From the NCBI GenBank assembly GCA_016199935.1, contig JACQFS010000152.1, forward strand, positions 1 through 41,288: DNA of 41,288 bases, written 5' to 3'. The position numbers and the translations under genes were made by a program. The notes under the pieces are model-generated. The model searched no databases, was not told the DNA's origin, and saw only the letters and a program-made list of their open reading frames with translations. Each line of letters starts with the position of its first letter. Position 1 is the first letter of the stretch. Positions 3,799-36,798 of this stretch are shown here, piece after piece. The stretch comes from Verrucomicrobiota bacterium (GTDB lineage: Bacteria > Verrucomicrobiota > Verrucomicrobiia > Limisphaerales > JACQFS01).

Positions 3799-4938
3799 AT
3801 GTTCCGACTCGCTCTGAAGATGTTGCTCGGCGACCGCGCGAAATACGCGATGCTCGTCGGCGGCCTCGGCTTCGCCACGTTGCTGATGATGCAGCAGTCG
3901 GCGGTCTTCGTCGGCCTCATGTCGTGGACCACGAGCCATCTGCGCAACATCCGCGCGCCCATCTGGGTTGGCGACACGAAGGTCGAGCAGGCCAACGAGG
4001 TGAAGGCCATGCGCGACACCGAGGTCAACCGTGTGCGCTCCGTCGCCGGCGTCGAGTGGGCCGTGCCGCTGTTCTTCACGATTCTCCAGTCGCGCCTCAC
4101 CGACGGAAATTTCAAGCCCGTCATGGTCGTCGGTCTCGACACCACGACGCTCATCGGCCGGCCGGCGTTGATGCTCAAAGGCCGCCTCGCCGACGTGCGC
4201 CTGCCCAACGCCGTGATCATTGACGACCTCGCCGTGCAGCGGCTCAGCATCGGACGCAAGAAGCCGCTCGACGTCGGCGACCAGTTTGAAATAAATGACA
4301 AGGAGGCGCGCATCGTCGGCATCTGCAAAGCGGAGCGGCATTTCTTCGGCTACCCCTACATCTTCACGACCTTCGACCAGGCGCGGCTCTTCTCGCCGAA
4401 GTCGCGCAAGATGCTCAGCCTCGTGCTCGCGTCGCCGAAGCCCGGCTTGAGCGCCGCGAAAGTCGCGGAGGCCATCCACCAGGAGACGGGGCTCGCCGCC
4501 TACGACGAGAACCGTTTCGGCTGGGCGACCATCTGGTGGTATGTCCGCAACACCGGCATTCCCGTGTCCTTCGGCACCACGATTCTCCTCGGCTTCATCG
4601 TCGGTATCGTGATTTGCGGGCAGACGTTTTACCTCTTCGTGGTGGACAACCTCCGCCATCTCGGCGCGCTCAAGGCGATGGGCGCGGGCAACCTCACCAT
4701 CGCCGCGATGCTGCTCGTGCAGGCGTTCACCGTCGGCTGCATCGGCTTCGGTTTCGGCGCGGGGCTGACGGCGGCGTTCGGCTTCGCAGTGCTCGACAAG
4801 GGGATGCCGCCCTTCCTGCTGCCGTGGCAACTGCCCGTCTTCACATTCGTCGTGGTGATGCTCATCTGCATGTTCGCGGCGCTGCTGGGGATTCTGCGCA
4901 TCTGGAAAGTGGAGCCGGCGATTGTGTTCCGCGGTTAG
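3799..4938 (+). CDS. ABC exporter permease, FtsX/DevC-like
   Basis: A 379-residue inner-membrane permease with the MacB/FtsX layout: one N-terminal transmembrane helix (about 20-40), a large periplasmic domain (about 45-245), then three C-terminal helices (about 250-275, 295-325, 345-370). The ending ILRIWKVEPAIVFRG is typical of FtsX/DevC permeases, and the whole resembles cyanobacterial DevC. It would form a homodimer with the ATPase encoded next and connect to the periplasmic adaptor. It starts three bases after the repressor stop, so the repressor and exporter are one transcription unit. The transported compound cannot be told; DevBCA and MacAB relatives export lipids, peptides or drugs. 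Confidence 0.85.
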   Translation: MFRLALKMLLGDRAKYAMLVGGLGFATLLMMQQSAVFVGLMSWTTSHLRNIRAPIWVGDTKVEQANEVKAMRDTEVNRVRSVAGVEWAVPLFFTILQSRLTDGNFKPVMVVGLDTTTLIGRPALMLKGRLADVRLPNAVIIDDLAVQRLSIGRKKPLDVGDQFEINDKEARIVGICKAERHFFGYPYIFTTFDQARLFSPKSRKMLSLVLASPKPGLSAAKVAEAIHQETGLAAYDENRFGWATIWWYVRNTGIPVSFGTTILLGFIVGIVICGQTFYLFVVDNLRHLGALKAMGAGNLTIAAMLLVQAFTVGCIGFGFGAGLTAAFGFAVLDKGMPPFLLPWQLPVFTFVVVMLICMFAALLGILRIWKVEPAIVFRG

Positions 4939-4941
4939 GAG

Positions 4942-5045
4942 GGAAATGACGAATGACGAATGACGAATGCCAACCGAAGAACGCGCGGCGCGTTTTCGTA
5001 ACGCCTGGTTCGGCCGCCATTCGTCATTCGTCATTTGTCATTCCC
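4942..5045. repeat. Inverted pair of heptamer tandem repeats
   Basis: Left arm: three tandem copies of AATGACG (4945-4965) plus AATG. Right arm: CATTCGT, CATTCGT, CATTTGT, CATT (5018-5042), the reverse complement of the left with one change. The arms can pair over about 27 bp around a 48-base loop. The structure lies in the gap between permease and ATPase genes of the exporter operon, so the transcript would carry a long hairpin there, which could limit read-through or affect relative expression. This effect is inferred. Confidence 0.8.
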
Positions 5046-5076: not shown

Positions 5077-5886
5077 TTGAGCAAAGTGAACGGTGACATT
5101 CCATCCAACGGTCCGGCGAACGGCTCCGCGCCCAATGGCAACGGCCACACGCTCGCCGTCCACGTGCGCGGCGTGACCAAGACCTTCGGCAAGGGCGAGG
5201 CCGCCGTGCAGGCGCTCAAGGGCGTGGACTTCGACGTGCGCCAGGGCGAGTTGCTCATGATCGTCGGCCCGTCCGGCTGCGGGAAGACGACGCTCCTCAG
5301 CGTCATCGCGGGCACGCTGGAGTTTGAGAACGGCGAGATTGATGTGTTCGGTTCCTCGTTGCACAGCCTCAAGCCCCGTGAGGTCACCGCGTTCCGCAAG
5401 CGCACCGTGGGTTTCATTTTCCAGCAGTTCAACCTCATCCCCACGCTCTCGCTCGTCGAGAACGTCTCCGTGCCGCTGCTCATCAATGGCGTGAAGCGCC
5501 GCGAGGCGGAGGAGCGCTCGGCGGCAATGCTGGAGCGGCTCGGCCTGAAAGGCCGCGAGCACAAGCTGCCCACAGAGTTCTCCGGCGGCCAGCAGCAGCG
5601 CGTCGCCATCGCCCGCGCGCTCGTGCACGAGCCGCGCATGGTCATCTGCGACGAGCCGACCAGCGCGCTCGACAAGGACACCGGCCAGCAAATCATGGAG
5701 CAGCTCCGCGACATCGCGCGGCACCCGGAGCGCTGCGTCATCGTCGTCACGCACGACAACCGCGTGTTCAAATACGCCGACCGCATGACGGAGATGGAGG
5801 ACGGGCGAGTGCAGCGCGTGCATGACGTCGCCGCGCGCGGTGACCGCAGGTTTGATACTTCGTTTGGTGTAACCAGTGATGGCTGA
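5077..5886 (+). CDS. ABC transporter ATPase, LolD/MacB/DevA type
   Basis: A 269-residue nucleotide-binding subunit. Walker A GPSGCGKTT (about 64-72), Q-loop FQQFNLIPTLSLVENV, signature SGGQQQRVAIARAL, Walker B MVICDEPTSALD and switch His in VVTHD are all intact. The first 24 residues form a Gly/Asn/Pro-rich tail not normally seen in LolD/MacB ATPases. It should power the FtsX/DevC-like permease encoded upstream and work with the HlyD-like adaptor 12 bases downstream. The start is a TTG with an excellent Shine-Dalgarno; a rare start codon behind a strong site and a long hairpin suggests tuned translation. Confidence 0.92.
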   Translation: MSKVNGDIPSNGPANGSAPNGNGHTLAVHVRGVTKTFGKGEAAVQALKGVDFDVRQGELLMIVGPSGCGKTTLLSVIAGTLEFENGEIDVFGSSLHSLKPREVTAFRKRTVGFIFQQFNLIPTLSLVENVSVPLLINGVKRREAEERSAAMLERLGLKGREHKLPTEFSGGQQQRVAIARALVHEPRMVICDEPTSALDKDTGQQIMEQLRDIARHPERCVIVVTHDNRVFKYADRMTEMEDGRVQRVHDVAARGDRRFDTSFGVTSDG

Positions 5887-5898
5887 CGCATTTCTCCC

Positions 5899-6852
5899 AT
5901 GATCTTCAAACGCCTCTCCTTCTACCTCGCCATCACCGGCATCGCCGCCTCGGCCTACCTCGTTAACATACTGCGCAGCGCGCCGCCGCCGCCGCCGCCG
6001 GACAAGGAACCCGCCCGCTCGCCCTTCACCAACTCCGTCGCCGCCTCCGGCCTCGTCGAGGCCGCGCGGGAAAATGTCCGCATCGCGACCCAGCGCGCCG
6101 GGTTGGTGACGAAGGTCTTCGTGAAAGTCGGCGACACCGTGAAGGAGCGCGCCCCGCTGTTTCAACTCGACGACCGCGACACCCGCGCGCGCCTCGCCAG
6201 CGCGCGCGCGCAGGTCGCGGCGCTCCAGGCCGCGTTGCGCGCCGACGAGGTGATGCTTGCCGACGCCGAGGACCAGTGGCAGCGCGTCGAGAAGTTGAGC
6301 AAAGAGAACGTCGCCAGCGACGACGAACTCAAGCGCAAGCGATTCCAGCGCGACAACTGGACCGCCCGCCTCGCCAAGGACCGGGCCGACATTGATTCCT
6401 CCTCCGCCGCCGTGCAGCAGGCCGAGGTGGACCTCGAACTCCTCACCGTGCGCGCGCCGCGCGACGGCACCGTGCTCCAGGTCAACACCCGCGATGGCGA
6501 GCACGCCGCGCTCGCGCCCGCCGAGCCGCTGATGATCCTCGGCGAGACCGACGTGCTCCAGATTCGCGCCGACGTGGACGAGCAGAACGCGCCGCTCGTC
6601 CGCGCGGACCAGCCCGCCGTCGCCTACCTCAAGGGCGACACGAAGAGTCCGATCCGGCTCCAGTTCGTGCGCATTGATCCCTTCGTGATCCCGAAGCGCT
6701 CGCTCACCGGCGACAGCGTCGAGCGCGTGGACACGCGCGTGCTTCAGATCATTTTCCAGTTTGATCGCAAGGAAGTCGGCGTGCCCGTGTATGTCGGCCA
6801 GCAGGTGGACGTGTTCATCCAAAGGCCGATGGAGACCCGCGCGGGAAAATAG
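5899..6852 (+). CDS. Periplasmic adaptor (HlyD/DevB-like membrane fusion protein)
   Basis: A 317-residue membrane fusion protein. An N-terminal membrane anchor (FYLAITGIAASAYLVNILR) is followed by a run of six prolines as a spacer, a lipoyl-like half motif (ENVRIATQRAGLVTKVFVKVGDTVKERAPLF is split around a coiled-coil hairpin of about residues 95-175), the second lipoyl half (VRAPRDGTVLQVN) and a beta-barrel domain. It should bridge the inner-membrane ABC pair to the outer membrane. No outer-membrane TolC-like gene is present in the window, so the channel would come from elsewhere. It closes the repressor-permease-ATPase-adaptor operon. Confidence 0.88.
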   Translation: MIFKRLSFYLAITGIAASAYLVNILRSAPPPPPPDKEPARSPFTNSVAASGLVEAARENVRIATQRAGLVTKVFVKVGDTVKERAPLFQLDDRDTRARLASARAQVAALQAALRADEVMLADAEDQWQRVEKLSKENVASDDELKRKRFQRDNWTARLAKDRADIDSSSAAVQQAEVDLELLTVRAPRDGTVLQVNTRDGEHAALAPAEPLMILGETDVLQIRADVDEQNAPLVRADQPAVAYLKGDTKSPIRLQFVRIDPFVIPKRSLTGDSVERVDTRVLQIIFQFDRKEVGVPVYVGQQVDVFIQRPMETRAGK

Positions 6853-7292: not shown

Positions 7293-10200
7293 ATGTATCT
7301 CAAGAGCCTTACCGCGCTTGGCTTTAAGTCCTTCGCGGACAAGACCACCCTCAACTTTCAACCCGGCATCACCGCCATCGTTGGCCCCAACGGCTGCGGC
7401 AAGTCGAACGTCGCCGACGCCGTGCGCTGGGTGCTCGGCGAACAGTCCGCCAAGGCGCTGCGCGGCGGCGAAATGGCCGACGTGATTTTCAACGGCACCG
7501 ACTCGCGCAAGGCGATGGGCATGGCCGAGGTGTCCATCACGATCGGCGACGTGGACGCGGAGCAGTTGAGCGCTGCCGGCGTGACGATGGACTTCAACGA
7601 GATCACGCTCACGCGGCGCGTGTTCCGCGACGGCGGCTCGGAGTATTTCATCAACAAGGTTCCGTGCCGGCTCAAGGACGTCCAGCAGCTCTTCATGGGC
7701 ACGGGCGTCGGGCGCACGAGCTACAGCATCATGGCGCAGGGGAACATCACGCAGATCATTTCGAGCAAGCCCGATGATCGGCGCATGGTCTTCGAGGAAG
7801 CCGCGGGCATCACTAAGTTCAAGTCGCAGAAAAAAGAGTCGCTCCGCAAACTGGAACACACCGATCAGAATCTTCTGCGCGTGCAGGATCTCATCCGCGA
7901 GGTGAAGCGGCAGATTGGTTCGCTCCAGCGTCAGGCCGGCAAGGCGCGCCGCTACAAGCAGCTCGCGCAGGAACTCCAGCACCTCGACACGCAGCTCGCG
8001 CGGCATCAGTTCGACGTGCTCATGGGCGACATTCGCGGACGCGAGACGGAGCAGGACCGTTTGCGCGACGCCATCGAAGGCGCTCAGGAAAATGTGCTGC
8101 GCGGCGAAAACGAAATCGGCCAGCTCCGCAACCGCCTCTCCGAACTTGAACTGGAGATTCATGGGTCGCAGCAGCGTGGCCTCGAACTCAAGGCGCAGGC
8201 CGAGCGTAACGAGAGCCGCATCCATTTCAATCAGGAACGCCTGCACGAACTCGAACAGCAGAACGCCAAGGCGCTCACCGACATCACGCAGGGCGAGGAG
8301 CGCCGCTCCGCTGCCGAGCAGGAACTCGCCGCCGTCAGCGAGCGGCTCGCCGCGTCCGAGTCGCAACTCGCCGCGCACCGCAGCGCGCTCGAAGCGAAAA
8401 CGTCCGCACTGCAAAAGGTTGAGGACGGCTTGCGCGAGCATCAGGAGCAGGCCCGCGAGGCGCAGGCGCAACTCTTCGCCGTCGCGCAGTCGCTTACGCG
8501 CGCGCGGAATGAAATCAACGCGCTCGATTTGCAGAAGCAGGGCAACGTGGTGCGGCTGGAGAAACTTTCCGCCGAGAAGATCCAGCTTGAGGAGGAGCGC
8601 GGGCGGCTCGACGTGCGCCTCACCGAGTTCAACGCCAATGTCGAGGCCGAGAAGCTCAACGTCCAGACCACGCGCGGCACGGTCGAGCAGCGGCAGGCGC
8701 GGCTCAAGGAACTCGCGACGCAGTTGCAGCAGGTTTCGGCGGAACTCGACGGACTTCTGCATGGTCAGGCCGGGAAACGCTCGCAGCTCACCGTGCTCGA
8801 GCAGTTGCAGGAGTCGCACGAGGGCTTCGGTGCCGGTGCCCTCGCCGCGCTCAAGCAATCCCAGTCCGTGCTCGGCTCGCTCGCCGACAAGATTCGCGTG
8901 CCCGACCAGTATGTCACCGCGATTGAGGCCGCGCTCGGGTCGCAGCTTCAGTTGGTTCTCACGGAGCAGCCGGAATCCGCGCAACAAATCCTCGTGGACC
9001 TGTCGGCGAACAAGAAGGGCCGGGCGTCCATCGCGGCGCTTGGACTGCGGAATTCAGAATCCAGAATCCAGAATCCAGAATCCGTGCCCGCCGGTGCTGT
9101 CTCCGCGCTGCAAATCGTCGAAGCCGACGATTCCGTGAAGCCGTTGCTCGGCATTTTGCTCGGACGCACGCTCATCGTTCCCGATCTCGCCGCCGCGACC
9201 GCGGCGTGGCGCGAGACTTCCGGCGCGTTTGACTTCGTCACGCACACGGGCGAGTTGCTCAACCGTGCCGGCGTCTTCACCGGCGGCGCGGCCAGCAGTG
9301 CCAGCGGCAAACCCACCTCCTCCATCCTCAGCCGCAAGAACCAGCTCGCCGGACTCCGCAAGGAAATCGAGGCGCTTCAGGCGAAGATCGGCGACCTCAG
9401 CCGCAACAAGGGCGCACTCACGGGCGAGCAGACCGATTTGCAGTCGAGCCTCGCGCAGGCGCAGACGGAACTCCGCACGCAGGAGGTCGCCATCGCCACG
9501 CGTCAGGGCGAGTTCAACGCGCTCCAGACTTCGCTGCGCACGCTGCACCAGAAAATCGACACGGTCGTTTACGAAATCCAGAGCCTTGCCGACACCGACC
9601 GCGAGGGCATTGCGAAACGCGCCAAGCTCGCCGCCGAACTCAGTGACCTCGAAACCGGCGAACGCGAAAGCCAGCAGTCCCTCGCCGGACTCAACGCCGC
9701 CATCGAGGCGCTCCGTGTTGAGCGCGACACGGCCAATGCCGCGCTCACCGAGGCCAAGGTGAACCTCGCCGCCGAGGAGCAGCTTTGCGCCTCGTTCCGC
9801 GCCCAGCGCGCGCCGCTCGAGACGCGCATCGCCGAGCTGAACCAGATCATCACGCAGCGCAAGAGCGAGTGCTCCTCGTTCGTCACGCGCAAGGCCCAAT
9901 TCGAGACGGAGATCGCCGAGTCGCAGCAGCACATCATCTCGCTCACGCAGCAGCGCGAACAGGTCAGCCACCAGATCGCGGGATTGATGGAGCAAAAGTC
10001 CGCGCAGGACCAGGCCGTGCAGGCGCACGAGGAAAGTCTCCGCGAGGAACGCCGCACGCTCGCCGATTCCCAGCAGCAGCGCGGCAGCATCGAGGTCGAG
10101 CTCGCCCAGAAGAACATGCAGGTGCAGAACCTTCGCGAGCGCGTCCAGCAAAAGTATCAGGTGAACCTCGACGACATCCGCAGCGAGTGCATCACCATCA

Positions 10201-11723: not shown

Positions 11724-13763
11724 ATGTTCAACCTGAGTTCGCTCAACCCGCAGCAGCGCGAGGCGGTCGAGACCACCCGCGGCCCGGTGCTCATCCTCGC
11801 CGGCGCCGGCACGGGCAAGACGCGCGTCATCACCTGTCGCATCGCGCACATGATCGCCCGCGGCATCGCGCCGGGAAACGTCCTCGCCGTCACGTTCACC
11901 AACAAGGCCGCGCGCGAGATGCAGGAGCGCGTGCGCGAGATGCTGCCGAGGGAAACGCGGAGCGCGGAGCGCGGAGCGCGGAGTGAAGAAAAAAAAGCCG
12001 AACGCCCGACGCTCTGCACGTTTCACTCGTTGTGCGTGCGCATCCTGCGGCATCACATCGAGAAGCTCGGCTACAAGCGCAACTTCGTCATTTACTCCGA
12101 GACCGAGCAGCTCGGCGCGATCAAGAAAATCCTCAGTGCCATCAAGGGCGAGAAGGTGGACCCCGGCGCGGTGCTGGGGATGTTGAGCCGCTTCCGCAAC
12201 GGCGGCACGCGCGCGGCGGCGTTCGCGGACCCGAACGTCACGGCGCTCGCGGAGCACGTGCGCAAGAAATACGAGTCCGCCCTGCGCGCGTGCAACGCGG
12301 TGGATTTCGACGATCTGATTTTGCTGACACTGCGGCTCTTCAAGGAATTTCCCGACGCGCTGGAAGCCTGCCGCGCGAAGTATCGCTACGTGATGGTGGA
12401 CGAGTATCAGGACACGAACGCGACGCAGTTCGAGCTGGTGCATCTCCTCACGAAGGAGCATCGCAACCTCTGCGTCGTGGGCGACGACGACCAGAGCATC
12501 TACGGCTGGCGCGGCGCGGAGGTCGCGAACCTGCTGGACCTCGAGAAGCATTATCCCGAGGTGAAGGTCGTCAAGCTGGAGCAGAACTACCGCTCGACGA
12601 ACACGATCCTGCGCACGGCCAATGCGGTGATCAAAAACAACGCGCGGCGTCGCGGAAAATCGCTGTGGTCGCAGAAGGGCACGGGCGAGAAGATCACGCT
12701 GCACGCGTTTCAGGACGACGAGGAGGAGGCGCGCACCATTGTCGAGGAGATCGAATTTCAACGCCTCGCCAACCGCATTCCGTGGGGCGACCAGGCGATC
12801 CTGTTCCGCACCAACATCCAGTCGCGTCCGCTCGAAACCGCGCTGCGCAAGGGCGGCGTGCGCTATCACCTCATCGGCGGCCAGAGTTTTTTCGACCGGC
12901 GCGAGGTGAAGGACCTGATCGCGTATCTCAAGACGCTCATCAATCCGAACGACGACGTGAGCCTGCTCCGCATCGCGAACACGCCCGCGCGCGGCCTGAG
13001 CGACGTGACGATGGAGCGATTGCTCGGTGCGAGCCAGGAGCGGCACTGCTCGGTGTATGCGGCGATGCGGCACACGGACGTGCTGGCCAGTTTGCAGACG
13101 CGCACGCGCGACGCGGTCGAGTCGTTCACGCGCTGGATCGAGGCGACGCGCGCGCCGTTGCTCGCGGAACAGCCGGTGCAGTTGAAAGCGTGGGCCGATG
13201 CTTTTCTGAACGACACCGGCTATTACGCCGATCTGCGCAAGTCCGAGAAGGACGCCGAGACCGGCGAGGGCCGCGTGCGCAACCTGCGCGAGATGATCGC
13301 GATGCTCGACGAGGACGGCGTGCCCTCGGCGAAGCCGGCCGAGCGCCTCGACGATTTTCTGGAGAACATCACGCTCGAGAGCGAGCGCGAGGAGGACAAG
13401 GAGGCCGGCGACGCGGTGACGCTGATCACGATGCACTCATGCAAGGGCCTGGAGTTCCCGCACGTGTATGTCGTCGGCCTCGAGGACGGGCTGCTGCCGC
13501 ACTCGCGCTCGAAGGTGGAGGGGACGATGGACGAGGAGCGGCGGCTGTTCTACGTGGCGATCACGCGCGCGCAGTTGACGCTGACGATCAGCCATTGCGG
13601 CGGGCGGAAGAAATACGGTCAGCTCATGCCGTGTCACCCGTCGCCGTTTCTCAAGGAGCTGCCGGAGGAATTCGTCGAGCACGCGAACGCAAAGCCGAAG
13701 GAGCCGGTGTCGGCCGAGCAGGGGAAGAACCTCTTTGCGGCGATGCGCGCGGCCATCCAGTGA
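11724..13763 (+). CDS. uvrD: UvrD/PcrA-family DNA helicase
   Basis: A 679-residue superfamily 1A 3'-5' helicase. Motifs in order: Q motif LNPQQREAV (8-16), Walker A AGAGTGKTRVIT, motif Ia AVTFTNKAAREMQERV, CTFHSLCVRILR, motif II VDEYQDTN, motif III VVGDDDQSIYGWRGAE, motif IV LEQNYRSTNTIL, motif V TMHSCKGLEFPHVYV and motif VI ERRLFYVAITRAQ. It acts in nucleotide excision repair, mismatch repair or removal of RecA filaments. The C-terminal tail is short compared with PcrA/UvrD of about 720 residues, lacking the tudor-like RNA-polymerase-binding end. A heptamer repeat adds a charged loop at residues 78-87 between motif Ia and CTFHS. A possible promoter (TTGTCA at 11686, TAAACT at 11708, 16-bp spacer) lies directly upstream, which would leave a very short leader. 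Confidence 0.95.
   Translation: MFNLSSLNPQQREAVETTRGPVLILAGAGTGKTRVITCRIAHMIARGIAPGNVLAVTFTNKAAREMQERVREMLPRETRSAERGARSEEKKAERPTLCTFHSLCVRILRHHIEKLGYKRNFVIYSETEQLGAIKKILSAIKGEKVDPGAVLGMLSRFRNGGTRAAAFADPNVTALAEHVRKKYESALRACNAVDFDDLILLTLRLFKEFPDALEACRAKYRYVMVDEYQDTNATQFELVHLLTKEHRNLCVVGDDDQSIYGWRGAEVANLLDLEKHYPEVKVVKLEQNYRSTNTILRTANAVIKNNARRRGKSLWSQKGTGEKITLHAFQDDEEEARTIVEEIEFQRLANRIPWGDQAILFRTNIQSRPLETALRKGGVRYHLIGGQSFFDRREVKDLIAYLKTLINPNDDVSLLRIANTPARGLSDVTMERLLGASQERHCSVYAAMRHTDVLASLQTRTRDAVESFTRWIEATRAPLLAEQPVQLKAWADAFLNDTGYYADLRKSEKDAETGEGRVRNLREMIAMLDEDGVPSAKPAERLDDFLENITLESEREEDKEAGDAVTLITMHSCKGLEFPHVYVVGLEDGLLPHSRSKVEGTMDEERRLFYVAITRAQLTLTISHCGGRKKYGQLMPCHPSPFLKELPEEFVEHANAKPKEPVSAEQGKNLFAAMRAAIQ
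11957..11984 (+). repeat. Heptamer tandem repeat inside the helicase gene
   Basis: Three exact copies of GCGGAGC followed by GCGGAGT, in perfect 7-bp phase. It encodes an Arg/Ser/Glu-rich stretch (T-R-S-A-E-R-G-A-R-S) where related helicases have a short loop between motif Ia and the TFHS motif. Confidence 0.85.
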
Positions 13764-22552: not shown

Positions 22553-23446
22553 TCAGCTCGTGAAGATTTTCGCCATGCGGTCGGCGAGGTCTTTCAATCC
22601 CTCGGGCGTGCCGCCGCCGCCCTGCTCGGCGATGCCCCAGCCGGTGTAGCCGATCTTGTCGAGCGCGGCCATGATCGCGGGCCAGTCGTTGGTGCCTTCG
22701 AGGAATTTGCTGCCGAAGCCGGCACCCGGTTTTTCCGGCGTCATGTTCTTCGTGTTGAACTCCTTGATGTGCACCTTGAGGATGCGTTTGCCGATCACGG
22801 GAATCCACTGCTCCGCCGGGCTGTAGCGGCCCACGTTGCCGATGTCGAAATGCCAGCCGACCCATTCGCTGTTGATGGCGTCGAGGAAATCCACGGCTTG
22901 CTGCGGCGTGGTGATGAAATCATTCCACACGTTCTCGATCGCGATCTTCACGCCGGTGTCCTTCGCGGCGGGGACGGCTTTCTTGATCTCAGCGACGGAG
23001 CGCGCGAAGCAGTCGTCGTAGCTCACGCCGTTTTTCGCGACGCCGGGGACGAGCAGCACGGAGGTCGCGCCGTAAGCCTTCGCGTCGTTGAGCGAGAGCA
23101 CGAGTCCGTCGAGACCGATTTTGCGTGTGGCCTCGTCGGGCGCGGAGAGGGGCTTGGCCCAGTGCGTGTGGACGCACACGCTCGCGGCCTTGAGTCCGGT
23201 CTCGGCGAGCGCGGCCTTTACTTCGTCGCGGTCCATCGCGCCCATCGGCTCGACGCCGAGGAAGCCGGCGGCCTTGACCAGCTTCATTTTTTCCAGCACG
23301 GAGCCCTTGACGCCGACGGTGCTCCACATGATGGCGCGTTTGAGGTCGCGCCGCTTCGCGGCGAAGGCGGCGGGGGTGATCGCAGCGGCGGCGAGTGCGG
23401 CGGCGGAGGCGTGGAGAAAATTGCGGCGAGTCAGGGTGGTGTTCAT
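22553..23446 (-). CDS. Exported sugar phosphate isomerase/epimerase-like protein
   Basis: A 297-residue TIM-barrel protein of the xylose-isomerase-like (AP endonuclease 2) superfamily. A twin-arginine leader opens it (TRRNFLHASAAALAAAAITPAAFA), so it should be exported folded through Tat, perhaps with its metal. Barrel metal and substrate motifs: AIENVWNDF (Glu), WHFDIGNVGRY (Asp, His region), VHIKEFN (His/Glu) and the late AEQGGGGTPEG. Family members isomerise or epimerise keto-sugars or inositols. It is the downstream neighbour of the Tat-exported Gfo/Idh/MocA gene (same strand, separated by a 140-base repeat-filled gap), so a joint periplasmic sugar-oxidation step is plausible. Similar protein at 29432-30340. 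Confidence 0.85.
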   Translation of the reverse strand: MNTTLTRRNFLHASAAALAAAAITPAAFAAKRRDLKRAIMWSTVGVKGSVLEKMKLVKAAGFLGVEPMGAMDRDEVKAALAETGLKAASVCVHTHWAKPLSAPDEATRKIGLDGLVLSLNDAKAYGATSVLLVPGVAKNGVSYDDCFARSVAEIKKAVPAAKDTGVKIAIENVWNDFITTPQQAVDFLDAINSEWVGWHFDIGNVGRYSPAEQWIPVIGKRILKVHIKEFNTKNMTPEKPGAGFGSKFLEGTNDWPAIMAALDKIGYTGWGIAEQGGGGTPEGLKDLADRMAKIFTS

Positions 23447-23454
23447 GGGTTTCC

Positions 23455-23585
23455 TTTTAACGCAAAGACGCCAAGGCGCAAAGACGCAATGAGAACTTCA
23501 AAGTGGGTGAAGCGTTGAAATTGTTTTGAGCATGGTGTCAGCGGCTTTGCCCGCGTCTTTGCGTCTTTGCGCCTTGGCGTTAAAA
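23455..23585. repeat. Inverted pair of octamer repeats
   Basis: Left arm (23455-23487): TTTTAA then units CGCAAAGA, CGCCAAGG, CGCAAAGA, CGC. Right arm (23553-23585) on the opposite strand: TTTTAA, CGCCAAGG, CGCAAAGA, CGCAAAGA, CGC. Same two units in a different order, so the arms are related by unit shuffling or conversion, not plain duplication. The pair fills the gap between two minus-strand genes; a 65-base spacer lies between the arms. Confidence 0.8.
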
Positions 23586-23586
23586 C

Positions 23587-24894
23587 TCAGACGAATTTCT
23601 TTTTCCCCGGCACCGCGATCGGCAGCACCGGCAGGTTCATGTCCCACGTGAGATTATCGGGCACGAGGTTCTCCTCCGAGTTGAGCGCCATTTCCCACGT
23701 GACCTCCAGGCCCGTGTAGGCGGCCATGCGGCCCATCAGGCCCATCATCGTGCTGGTGCACATGCGGTCGCCGTTGTTGAGCGGCGTGCCGGCGCGGATG
23801 CTCGCGAAGAATTCGTCGTGCTCCACCTGATACATGTTGGGCGTGGGGCCGGAGTATTGCCACGGGTTCTCGCCGGTGATCTCCACGGGCGCGCTGCCGC
23901 GGCGGCCGATGTAGGCATTCCCCTTCGAGCCGAAGATGTAGTCCTTGTTCTCGCCGTAGCAGCCGGTGATCTGGCGCTGGGCCATGAAGCCACGCACGCC
24001 GCTGGCCCACTCGTAATTCACCTCGATGTGATCGTAGATGTTGCCCTCGAAGTTCGGCGTCATGCGCCCACCGACGGCGGTGCATTTGGCGGGCGGCACG
24101 TCCTTCATCGCCCACGCCATCTTGTCCACGCTGTGGATCGCCTGCTCGACGAGGCCGTCGCCGCAAAGCCAGCCGAAGTTATACCAGTTGCGCACCTGCC
24201 ACTCGACGTCGCTCATGCCGGCGGGGCGCGTCTCGGGCGCGGGCATCGCCTTGACGGGGCCGGTGAGATAAGTGTGGTAGAGCGCCTTGATCTCGCCGAT
24301 GGCGCCGCCGTGGATTTTCTCAAACAGCGCGCGCCGCGCGTAGTCGTAGCGCCAGCAGAAACCCGCAACGACCGCGATCTGCTTCGCCTTCGCCACGCGC
24401 ACGCTCTCCATCACGGAGCGCAGGCCGGGCGCATCGGTGGCCATAGGTTTTTCGAGAAAGATGTGCTTGCCGGCTTCGACGGCGGCCTTGAAGTGCAGCG
24501 GGCGGAAACCCGGCGGCGTCGTGAGGATCACCACGTCCACGCCGGACGCGAGCACCTTCTGATACGCGTCAAGGCCGGTGAACTGCCGCTCCTTCGGCAC
24601 ATCGAACTTCGCGTCGTTCTTCAACTGCCCCTTGAGCGTGTCGAGGCTCTTCTCCAGCTTCTCGGGGAACGCGTCGCCCATCGCGTGCAGCACCACGTTG
24701 CTGTCCGCGCTGAGCGCCTGGTTCGCGGCGCCGGTGCCGCGGCCGCCGCAGCCGATGAAGCCGATCTTCAACTTCTCCGCGCTGCCGGCCGCGCTCGCGA
24801 CGAAGGGAAACGCGAGCGCCGTGGATGCGGCGGCGAGCGAGGAGCTTTTCAAAAAGTCACGACGGGTGGAGAGCGATTCGTTTGGCGGAGTCAT
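23587..24894 (-). CDS. Tat-exported Gfo/Idh/MocA oxidoreductase
   Basis: A 435-residue NAD(P)-dependent sugar dehydrogenase-like protein. Tat leader STRRDFLKSSSLAAASTALAFPF, then the Rossmann motif KIGFIGCGGRGTGAANQAL, the family signature EAGKHIFLEKPMATD (catalytic Lys of the E-K-P motif) and the C-terminal open beta-sheet domain. Members of this exported subgroup are very common in Verrucomicrobiota and Planctomycetota and some carry tightly bound NAD and act on glycosides. An in-sequence ATG at 24894 begins the leader; TATAAA lies 10 bases upstream on this strand, a possible -10 box. Likely in the same unit as the epimerase-like gene downstream. Confidence 0.9.
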   Translation of the reverse strand: MTPPNESLSTRRDFLKSSSLAAASTALAFPFVASAAGSAEKLKIGFIGCGGRGTGAANQALSADSNVVLHAMGDAFPEKLEKSLDTLKGQLKNDAKFDVPKERQFTGLDAYQKVLASGVDVVILTTPPGFRPLHFKAAVEAGKHIFLEKPMATDAPGLRSVMESVRVAKAKQIAVVAGFCWRYDYARRALFEKIHGGAIGEIKALYHTYLTGPVKAMPAPETRPAGMSDVEWQVRNWYNFGWLCGDGLVEQAIHSVDKMAWAMKDVPPAKCTAVGGRMTPNFEGNIYDHIEVNYEWASGVRGFMAQRQITGCYGENKDYIFGSKGNAYIGRRGSAPVEITGENPWQYSGPTPNMYQVEHDEFFASIRAGTPLNNGDRMCTSTMMGLMGRMAAYTGLEVTWEMALNSEENLVPDNLTWDMNLPVLPIAVPGKKKFV

Positions 24895-31660: not shown

Positions 31661-31688
31661 TCATAATTCATCCCTCATCCTTCATCCT
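31661..31688 (+). repeat. Heptamer tandem repeat before the PIG-L gene
   Basis: Four 7-bp units in exact phase: TCATAAT, TCATCCC, TCATCCT, TCATCCT. They end ten bases before the ATG at 31698 and fill the place of a ribosome binding site, so the repeat probably forms most of the 5' leader. Confidence 0.8.
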
Positions 31689-31697
31689 TTCCGCGTC

Positions 31698-36738: not shown

Positions 36739-36745
36739 CCGGGCA

Positions 36746-36777
36746 GGGGAGAAGGGGAGAAAGGGAGCGCGGGAGAA
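36746..36777 (+). repeat. Octamer purine-rich tandem repeat
   Basis: Two exact copies of GGGGAGAA followed by the related AGGGAGCG and CGGGAGAA, in 8-bp phase, in the gap between the convergent TPR and exosortase genes. It belongs to the same class of short tandem repeats seen elsewhere in the window. Confidence 0.65.
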
Positions 36778-36798
36778 GGACCACGGCAACCGCGATTG

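Follow-up and report, generated by a model that had tools for sequence, protein, structure and literature searches.

A stretch of 41,288 nucleotides from a Verrucomicrobiota bacterium (contig JACQFS010000152.1), hereafter the window, carries an exporter operon in which a tandem seven-base repeat and its inverted counterpart lie between two genes, and seven-base repeats of other words recur along the same DNA. What is the element in the operon, and do the repeats have a common cause, as the earlier note had proposed? The operon is laid out as follows.

3799..4938, plus strand: MacB/FtsX-type ABC permease gene (PF02687, PF12704)
4944..4971, plus strand: left arm, AAATGACGAATGACGAATGACGAATGCC, heptamer GAATGAC repeated 3.6 times
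4972..5014: loop of 43 bp, rich in GC and in part self-complementary
5015..5043, minus strand: right arm, CGCCATTCGTCATTCGTCATTTGTCATTC, inverted counterpart of the left one
5077..5886, plus strand: ABC-transporter ATPase gene (PF00005)
5899-6852: HlyD-type fusion protein gene, next after the ATPase (PF13437/PF16576)

In the element at 4944-5043, arms of 28 and 29 bp flank the 43-bp loop. The AATGACG repeat first noticed here is exact, with 3.6 copies at 4945-4969 and its inverted arm at 5018-5043. The arms were said to split the exporter operon; they do stand between two exporter genes, but neither gene is interrupted. The permease stop codon (4936-4938) ends 5 bp upstream of the element, and the TTG start of the ATPase gene (5077, picked by eye), preceded by AGGAGG, lies 33 bp beyond it. 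As RNA, the pair is predicted to form a hairpin of -70.7 kcal/mol (z -7.2). The loop matches no loop of the other copies among those listed, and Rfam returned no match above the gathering score within the window.

Further arrays in the window were located as follows.

9050..9083, plus strand: lone heptamer array GAATCCA x4.9 inside smc, reads RNSESRIQNPES
11956..11983, plus strand: CGCGGAG x4, a lone array within a gene for a UvrD/PcrA/Rep helicase
23455..23585: octamer-armed sister palindrome, ACGCAAAG
31667..31689, minus strand: imperfect heptamer array directly before a PIG-L gene

Both intragenic repeats were recovered as first described, AATCCAG in smc with 4.9 copies and GCGGAGC in uvrD with 4.0 perfect copies. 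The smc array falls within the hinge domain, in a stretch that varies, and nothing further is claimed for it because comparison with a solved Smc hinge (5h69) gave no clear net insertion. The uvrD array occupies a loop that exceeds those of PcrA and Rep by 13-14 residues; it has no GAA word and may reflect plain slippage. TCATCCT before the PIG-L gene is present in 3.3 copies but is imperfect (87%); on the minus strand and with adjoining bases it reads AAGGATGAAGGATGAGGGATGAATTATGAAAGA, close to the YGAANNN rule set out below. Two octamer repeats had also been reported: that at 23455-23585 is a genuine ACGCAAAG inverted pair, but that at 36745-36779 is weak (74% match). The former nearly fills the gap (23447-23586) between two co-directional minus-strand genes (22553-23446 and 23587-24894), and its family is paired elsewhere in the genome too.

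Words of other lengths were noted in passing. Inverted pairs of the octamer ACGCAAAG/GCGCAAAG occur in the window (23455-23585) and at loci L161 (807-949), L172 (9858-10009) and L163 (9192-9341), the last with a period-10 pair (TGCGCGAATT) nested within its octamer arms; in a relative (G021, locus L189) the octamer is CGCAGAGG, likewise paired. Period-10 words, ACACGGATGG / CATCCGTGTC, form a third class beside 7 and 8, with arrays at L167 (15135-15161), L172 (7042-7068 and 13720-13747) and L174 (1680-1707), and some are inverted pairs. At L115 (19807-19872) a perfect 8-bp tandem repeat, TTGCGCGG, is present in 8 copies and has no inverted partner.

Period 7 is in excess across the genome. In a sample of 36 stretches (717 kb of 5.03 Mb, window included) that had not been selected for repeats, we counted period-k segments with few mismatches allowed, at scores of at least 12 and at least 17. 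Lag 7 yielded 33 and 17 segments at the two cut-offs, compared with 8 and 0 at lag 6, 8 and 3 at lag 8, 6 and 3 at lag 10, and at most 2 at lags 5 and 11; the anticipated genome-wide excess over lags 6 and 8 (33 segments versus at most 8) is therefore borne out. The signal consists of long runs only, with plain average identity at lag 7 not raised (0.258 versus 0.257 at lag 8). Within the window, runs of at least 14 matches occur three times at lag 7, once each at lags 3 and 6, twice at lag 14, a harmonic of 7, and at no other lag up to 24. The excess is weaker in 302 kb from 20 relatives, where lag 7 gave 6 segments and lags 8 and 14 gave 4 each. A chance origin of the heptamer repeats was ruled out by this excess, together with an expectation of about 0.01 matches like the AATGACG pair per window.

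The arrays do comprise several motifs, but "unrelated", as they had been called, describes them only in part. GAA or TTC is carried by 24 of the 33 lag-7 units, against about 14.5 for GC-matched genomic 7-mers, and the arrays average 44% GC against 64% for the genome. GAATGAC is the commonest word, and a wider vocabulary (GAAATCC, GAAACTC, GAACTTT, GAACACT and others) shares the form Y-G-A-A-N-N-N, with YGAA kept at period 7. Three YGAA at spacing 7 were found 56 times, compared with 3 for the reversed pattern and 8, 1 and 13 at spacings 6, 8 and 9. Since the rule was derived from this genome, other genomes provide the weightier test: in 97 genomes of the order, among them the present one, the four-fold YGAA pattern totals 3525 against 1014 for the reversed control, with at least 5 matches and more than twice the control in 41 genomes and the reverse in 6.

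Different words mix freely within one array (e.g., CGAATGACGAAACCCGAATGCCGAA). Between adjacent units, mismatches amount to 2-3% at the two A of GAA, 8% at the G and 10-19% over the three bases that follow. The choice of GAA as anchor biases the contrast somewhat, and a few other trimers that overlap the core (AAT, AAC) give a similar one. A fixed core with free neighbours is not predicted by slippage of local DNA; slippage alone fits poorly.

Two other patterns were observed in relatives. Congeners G036 and G080 carry the reversed pattern AAGYNNN at period 7 (201 and 214) far above YGAANNN, contributing 415 of the 1014 control counts, and perhaps follow another heptamer grammar. In genome G013, long TGAAACC/TGAAGCC arrays at loci L199, L204, L205, L208, L210 and L214 lie in or beside a repeat like CCTCCCATTCCGCGTGGGAACTGGA; arrays there may expand within another repeat.

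GAATGAC forms a palindrome family of about 47 loci in this genome, 32 of them usable as left/right inverted pairs, with 2 to 5 units in each arm. An inverted partner within 200 bp (p<=0.01) accompanies 14 of the 33 lag-7 arrays, and the other 19 have none; the corresponding counts are 0/8 for period 6, 6/8 for period 8 (mostly ACGCAAAG) and 3/6 for period 10. Loops range from 13 to 155 bp and are not homologous to one another except where the heptamer words run on into them. The two arms of one element resemble each other no more closely than arms taken from different elements (mean score 41.5 versus 41.8, p 0.63; a test of low power, the arms varying little), so neither compensatory pairing nor recent snap-back copying shows. 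A snap-back origin of each pair, which would predict arms that best match their own partner, was rejected on this observation. By eye, no target-site duplication or fixed insertion motif was recognised, and the PSD1 insertion described below likewise showed no such duplication.

Some copies are associated with other repeats. In the loop of L082 (2558-2712) another highly repeated palindrome is nested, with exact matches of 28-33 bp at many genome sites. L078 and L097 share TGAGCCTCCTCACGTCGGCTGCT in the right flank, immediately next to the heptamer arm; it appears to be a REP-like repeat that adjoins the element.

The placement of the arrays is strongly biased. With genes called by a simple codon-usage caller, whose calls are approximate, 13 of the 33 lag-7 arrays fall in ORFs, against 76% of random positions, and 9 of the 47 GAATGAC loci lie inside ORFs, in frame. 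Among the 38 intergenic GAATGAC loci, 34 sit between co-directional genes (33 as called plus the window's own copy, hand-corrected), 3 between convergent and 1 between divergent genes, compared with 278, 70 and 70 for background gaps (34/38 versus 278/418 co-directional, p 0.001). A stop codon lies within 25 bp of the element start in 30 of 33 tandem cases and a start codon within 15 bp of the element end in 21 of 33. The gap minus the element has a median of 15 bp, versus 67 bp for tandem gaps at large (p 1.5e-4). This junction-filling pattern is what insertion into tight operon junctions would give. The enrichment sought at gene junctions and in protein linkers holds.

Within genes, copies occupy protein linkers. 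At L106 a full palindrome lies in frame within a PSCyt2/PSD1 gene, where paralogs of the same genome have only four residues. A second linker of the PSD1 protein family holds GAATGAC arrays in L085 and L102 and GAAACTC arrays in L169 and L174. All six lone GAATGAC arrays in ORFs run in the stop-free direction and read IRHSSFVIR; the opposite direction contains TGA in every frame when long enough. This orientation indicates that intragenic copies are filtered for translatability. Other insertions were observed at comparable places: on the reverse strand of L102 (3853-4032) an unrelated in-frame 84-bp palindrome, CCGGAAAAATCCACAGGAGG...CTCCTGTTCAATCCGAATCCGG, occupies the same site as the L106 palindrome, and the DUF1549 gene of L175 has an extra-long linker, DVGSSRRKEALTSS...STRKDGEPPHVGAY, where paralogs hold heptamer arrays; the latter looks like another repeat inserted in frame.

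The family is patchily spread. Of 58 genomes of the order, counting the present one, 8 contain an exact GAATGAC triplet. The inverted pair was found in records of Pirellula, Phycisphaerales, Planctomycetaceae, Chthoniobacter and Prosthecobacter, in many cases with identical outer words (AATGACGAAATTCGAATGACG); in the draft genome of Chthoniobacter flavus Ellin428 it stands at L137 1380-1443. Counts of the wider pattern differ sharply within genera (167 versus 0, 77 versus 0 and 78 versus 5), and G013/G068, G091/G055 and G069/G014 pair array-rich with array-free congeners. No empty site was seen at the nucleotide level among the compared genomes, which belong to other families of the order, and an alignment of G013 with G068 did not span the arrays.

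We consider it somewhat more probable than the reverse that the element at 4944-5043 belongs to a dispersed, non-coding family of intercistronic palindromes with arms of heptamers, which spread by insertion and afterwards drifted in unit number. In the copies observed, a full element has two inverted arms of 2-5 heptamers (GAATGAC or variants that repeat YGAA every 7 bp) and a short loop, mostly unrelated to other loops, between them; such copies sit in tight co-directional junctions immediately after a stop codon or, in frame, in permissive linkers of proteins. The inserted DNA may be a short hairpin copied from another site, and its arms may come from a genome-wide pool through recombination between arrays instead of moving as one intact unit. 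Unit number would then drift by slippage or unequal recombination, with YGAA retained. In mRNA the hairpin, by analogy with REP/BIME elements, could partly insulate the upstream from the downstream gene, here the permease from the ATPase; given the predicted stability of the window hairpin, the two messages may have separate fates.

Plain replication slippage, in which the polymerase contacts about 7 nt and 7-nt duplications arise anywhere and expand, offers a simpler account. This polymerase-footprint model was proposed with Mrazek's 2007 survey, as cited in PMC4679880 and PMC4692102; heptamers are reported as the commonest long simple sequence repeat (SSR) in most bacterial genomes. It would explain the constant period, the different motifs and the variable copy number, and the GC-rich lone arrays CGCGGAG (uvrD) and CCGGCAG are compatible with it. 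The AT-richness of the arrays, their excess of GAA/TTC, the retention of YGAA in mixed words, the inverted partners of 14 of 33 arrays and the presence of the same GAATGAC pair in other phyla all argue against slippage, which we regard as unlikely. Less likely again are REPIN/TIR-like elements moved by an IS200/IS605-type Y1 transposase (RAYT or TIRYT). The inverted pairs, variable spacer and combination of intercistronic with in-frame intragenic sites match REPs of PVC bacteria (PMC3733652), this genome has four Y1 genes, one of them 0.85 kb from a GAATGAC copy, and array number correlates with Y1 gene number (rho 0.50; about 0.35 after genome size in 60 genomes). However, none of the four Y1 genes is flanked by heptamer arrays: the nearest has a different, GTAG-type palindrome (GCTCCGTAGGAGC) at its flanks, and the other three have no heptamer array in the flanking kilobases examined. 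Moreover, genome G017 (89% complete) has 329 YGAA matches but yielded no gene of the Y1 or RVT_1 family, and G076 and G029, likewise without a Y1 gene, have 26 and 19. A Y1 transposase as a necessary driver is not supported by G017, although the moderate correlation would still allow Y1 some part.

The arrays could also be selected binding sites, with a protein or RNA that recognises YGAA at 7-nt intervals and arrays kept at gene junctions for regulation or chromosome organisation. Such sites would fit the conserved core with free NNN and the position of arrays just after stop codons and close to starts; in Beggiatoaceae, TAACTGA heptamers likewise cluster at start codons. We rate this reading slightly below the transposase: within a single genus the count drops from 167 to 0, some copies are found in unrelated genes, no co-variation links the two arms of an element, and the same core could be retained by a selfish element. 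A reverse transcriptase that adds repeats from a template, in the manner of telomerase, could produce a constant period and repeated words, but is highly improbable. RVT_1 genes were found neither here nor in G017 and G013, which are array-rich as well, and this candidate is not supported; G068 and G055 have RVT_1 genes but no arrays, and the many words per genome would require many templates. The idea of a common mechanism survives as a genome-wide period-7 phenomenon with several motifs, but not as slippage alone or as a template activity of the reverse-transcriptase type. Beyond the insertion-spread family favoured for this element, we tentatively raise the possibility, which we think doubtful, that Verrucomicrobia and Planctomycetes share an undescribed palindrome class with one 7-base grammar, YGAANNN, spread by neither slippage, Y1 nor reverse transcriptase, whose YGAA core would be read every 7 bases.

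Known heptamer repeats include the STRRs of Calothrix, GGGAATC in Xanthomonas and Nostoc (PMC4692102) and TAACTGA in Beggiatoaceae (PMC4679880). The likeness to cyanobacterial STRRs drawn at the outset is apt: tandem 7-bp units exceed other periods genome-wide, and the arrays share with heptameric SSRs and STRRs the several words, the mostly intergenic location near start codons and the patchy spread across lineages; inverted repeats were noted for Xanthomonas heptamer arrays as well. Unlike those repeats, many words here obey one rule, YGAANNN, different words can share an array, and GAATGAC copies mostly form inverted pairs that fill co-directional gaps. Like REP, BIME and REPIN elements (GTAG and CGTC families, PMC3733652; REPINs, PMC3116915), the elements are dispersed, palindromic, placed behind genes and paired in inverted orientation with a variable spacer, and intragenic GTAG palindromes are already known from Opitutus terrae (PMC3733652). 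In contrast to REPs, 20-40 bp imperfect palindromes with an unpaired GTAG or CGTC end tag, each arm here alone is a direct tandem repeat, CGTC lies inside the paired heptamer arm, and a dedicated transposase was not found here. Nor do the inverted arms enclose shared internal sequence as in a MITE, the loops being mostly non-homologous.

Rickettsia palindromic elements (RPE) likewise lie in frame in unrelated proteins and leave the protein unbroken, as the L106 palindrome does relative to its PSD1 paralogs, a minority situation with 9 of 47 loci in ORFs. RPE families are conserved over their whole length, whereas the present copies are mostly intergenic and have only their arms in common. Heptamers as the leading class of long bacterial SSRs and the polymerase-footprint idea are known; the YGAANNN rule and the palindrome form appear to be new. 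In the literature covered, which leaves preprints and most subscription journals outside its scope, we encountered neither the rule nor intercistronic palindromes with heptamer arms, and the motif letters were not found in literature on PVC bacteria.

Why heptamers dominate bacterial long simple repeats has been answered with a standing guess, polymerase-footprint slippage. The fixed GAA core, inverted pairing and operon-junction placement point instead to sequence-specific spread. Because counts differ as much as 167 versus 0 within a genus, the responsible genes should be findable by gene-content comparison. As hairpins between co-transcribed genes and as peptides added to proteins, these elements may bear on operon expression and on the annotation of many uncultured genomes.
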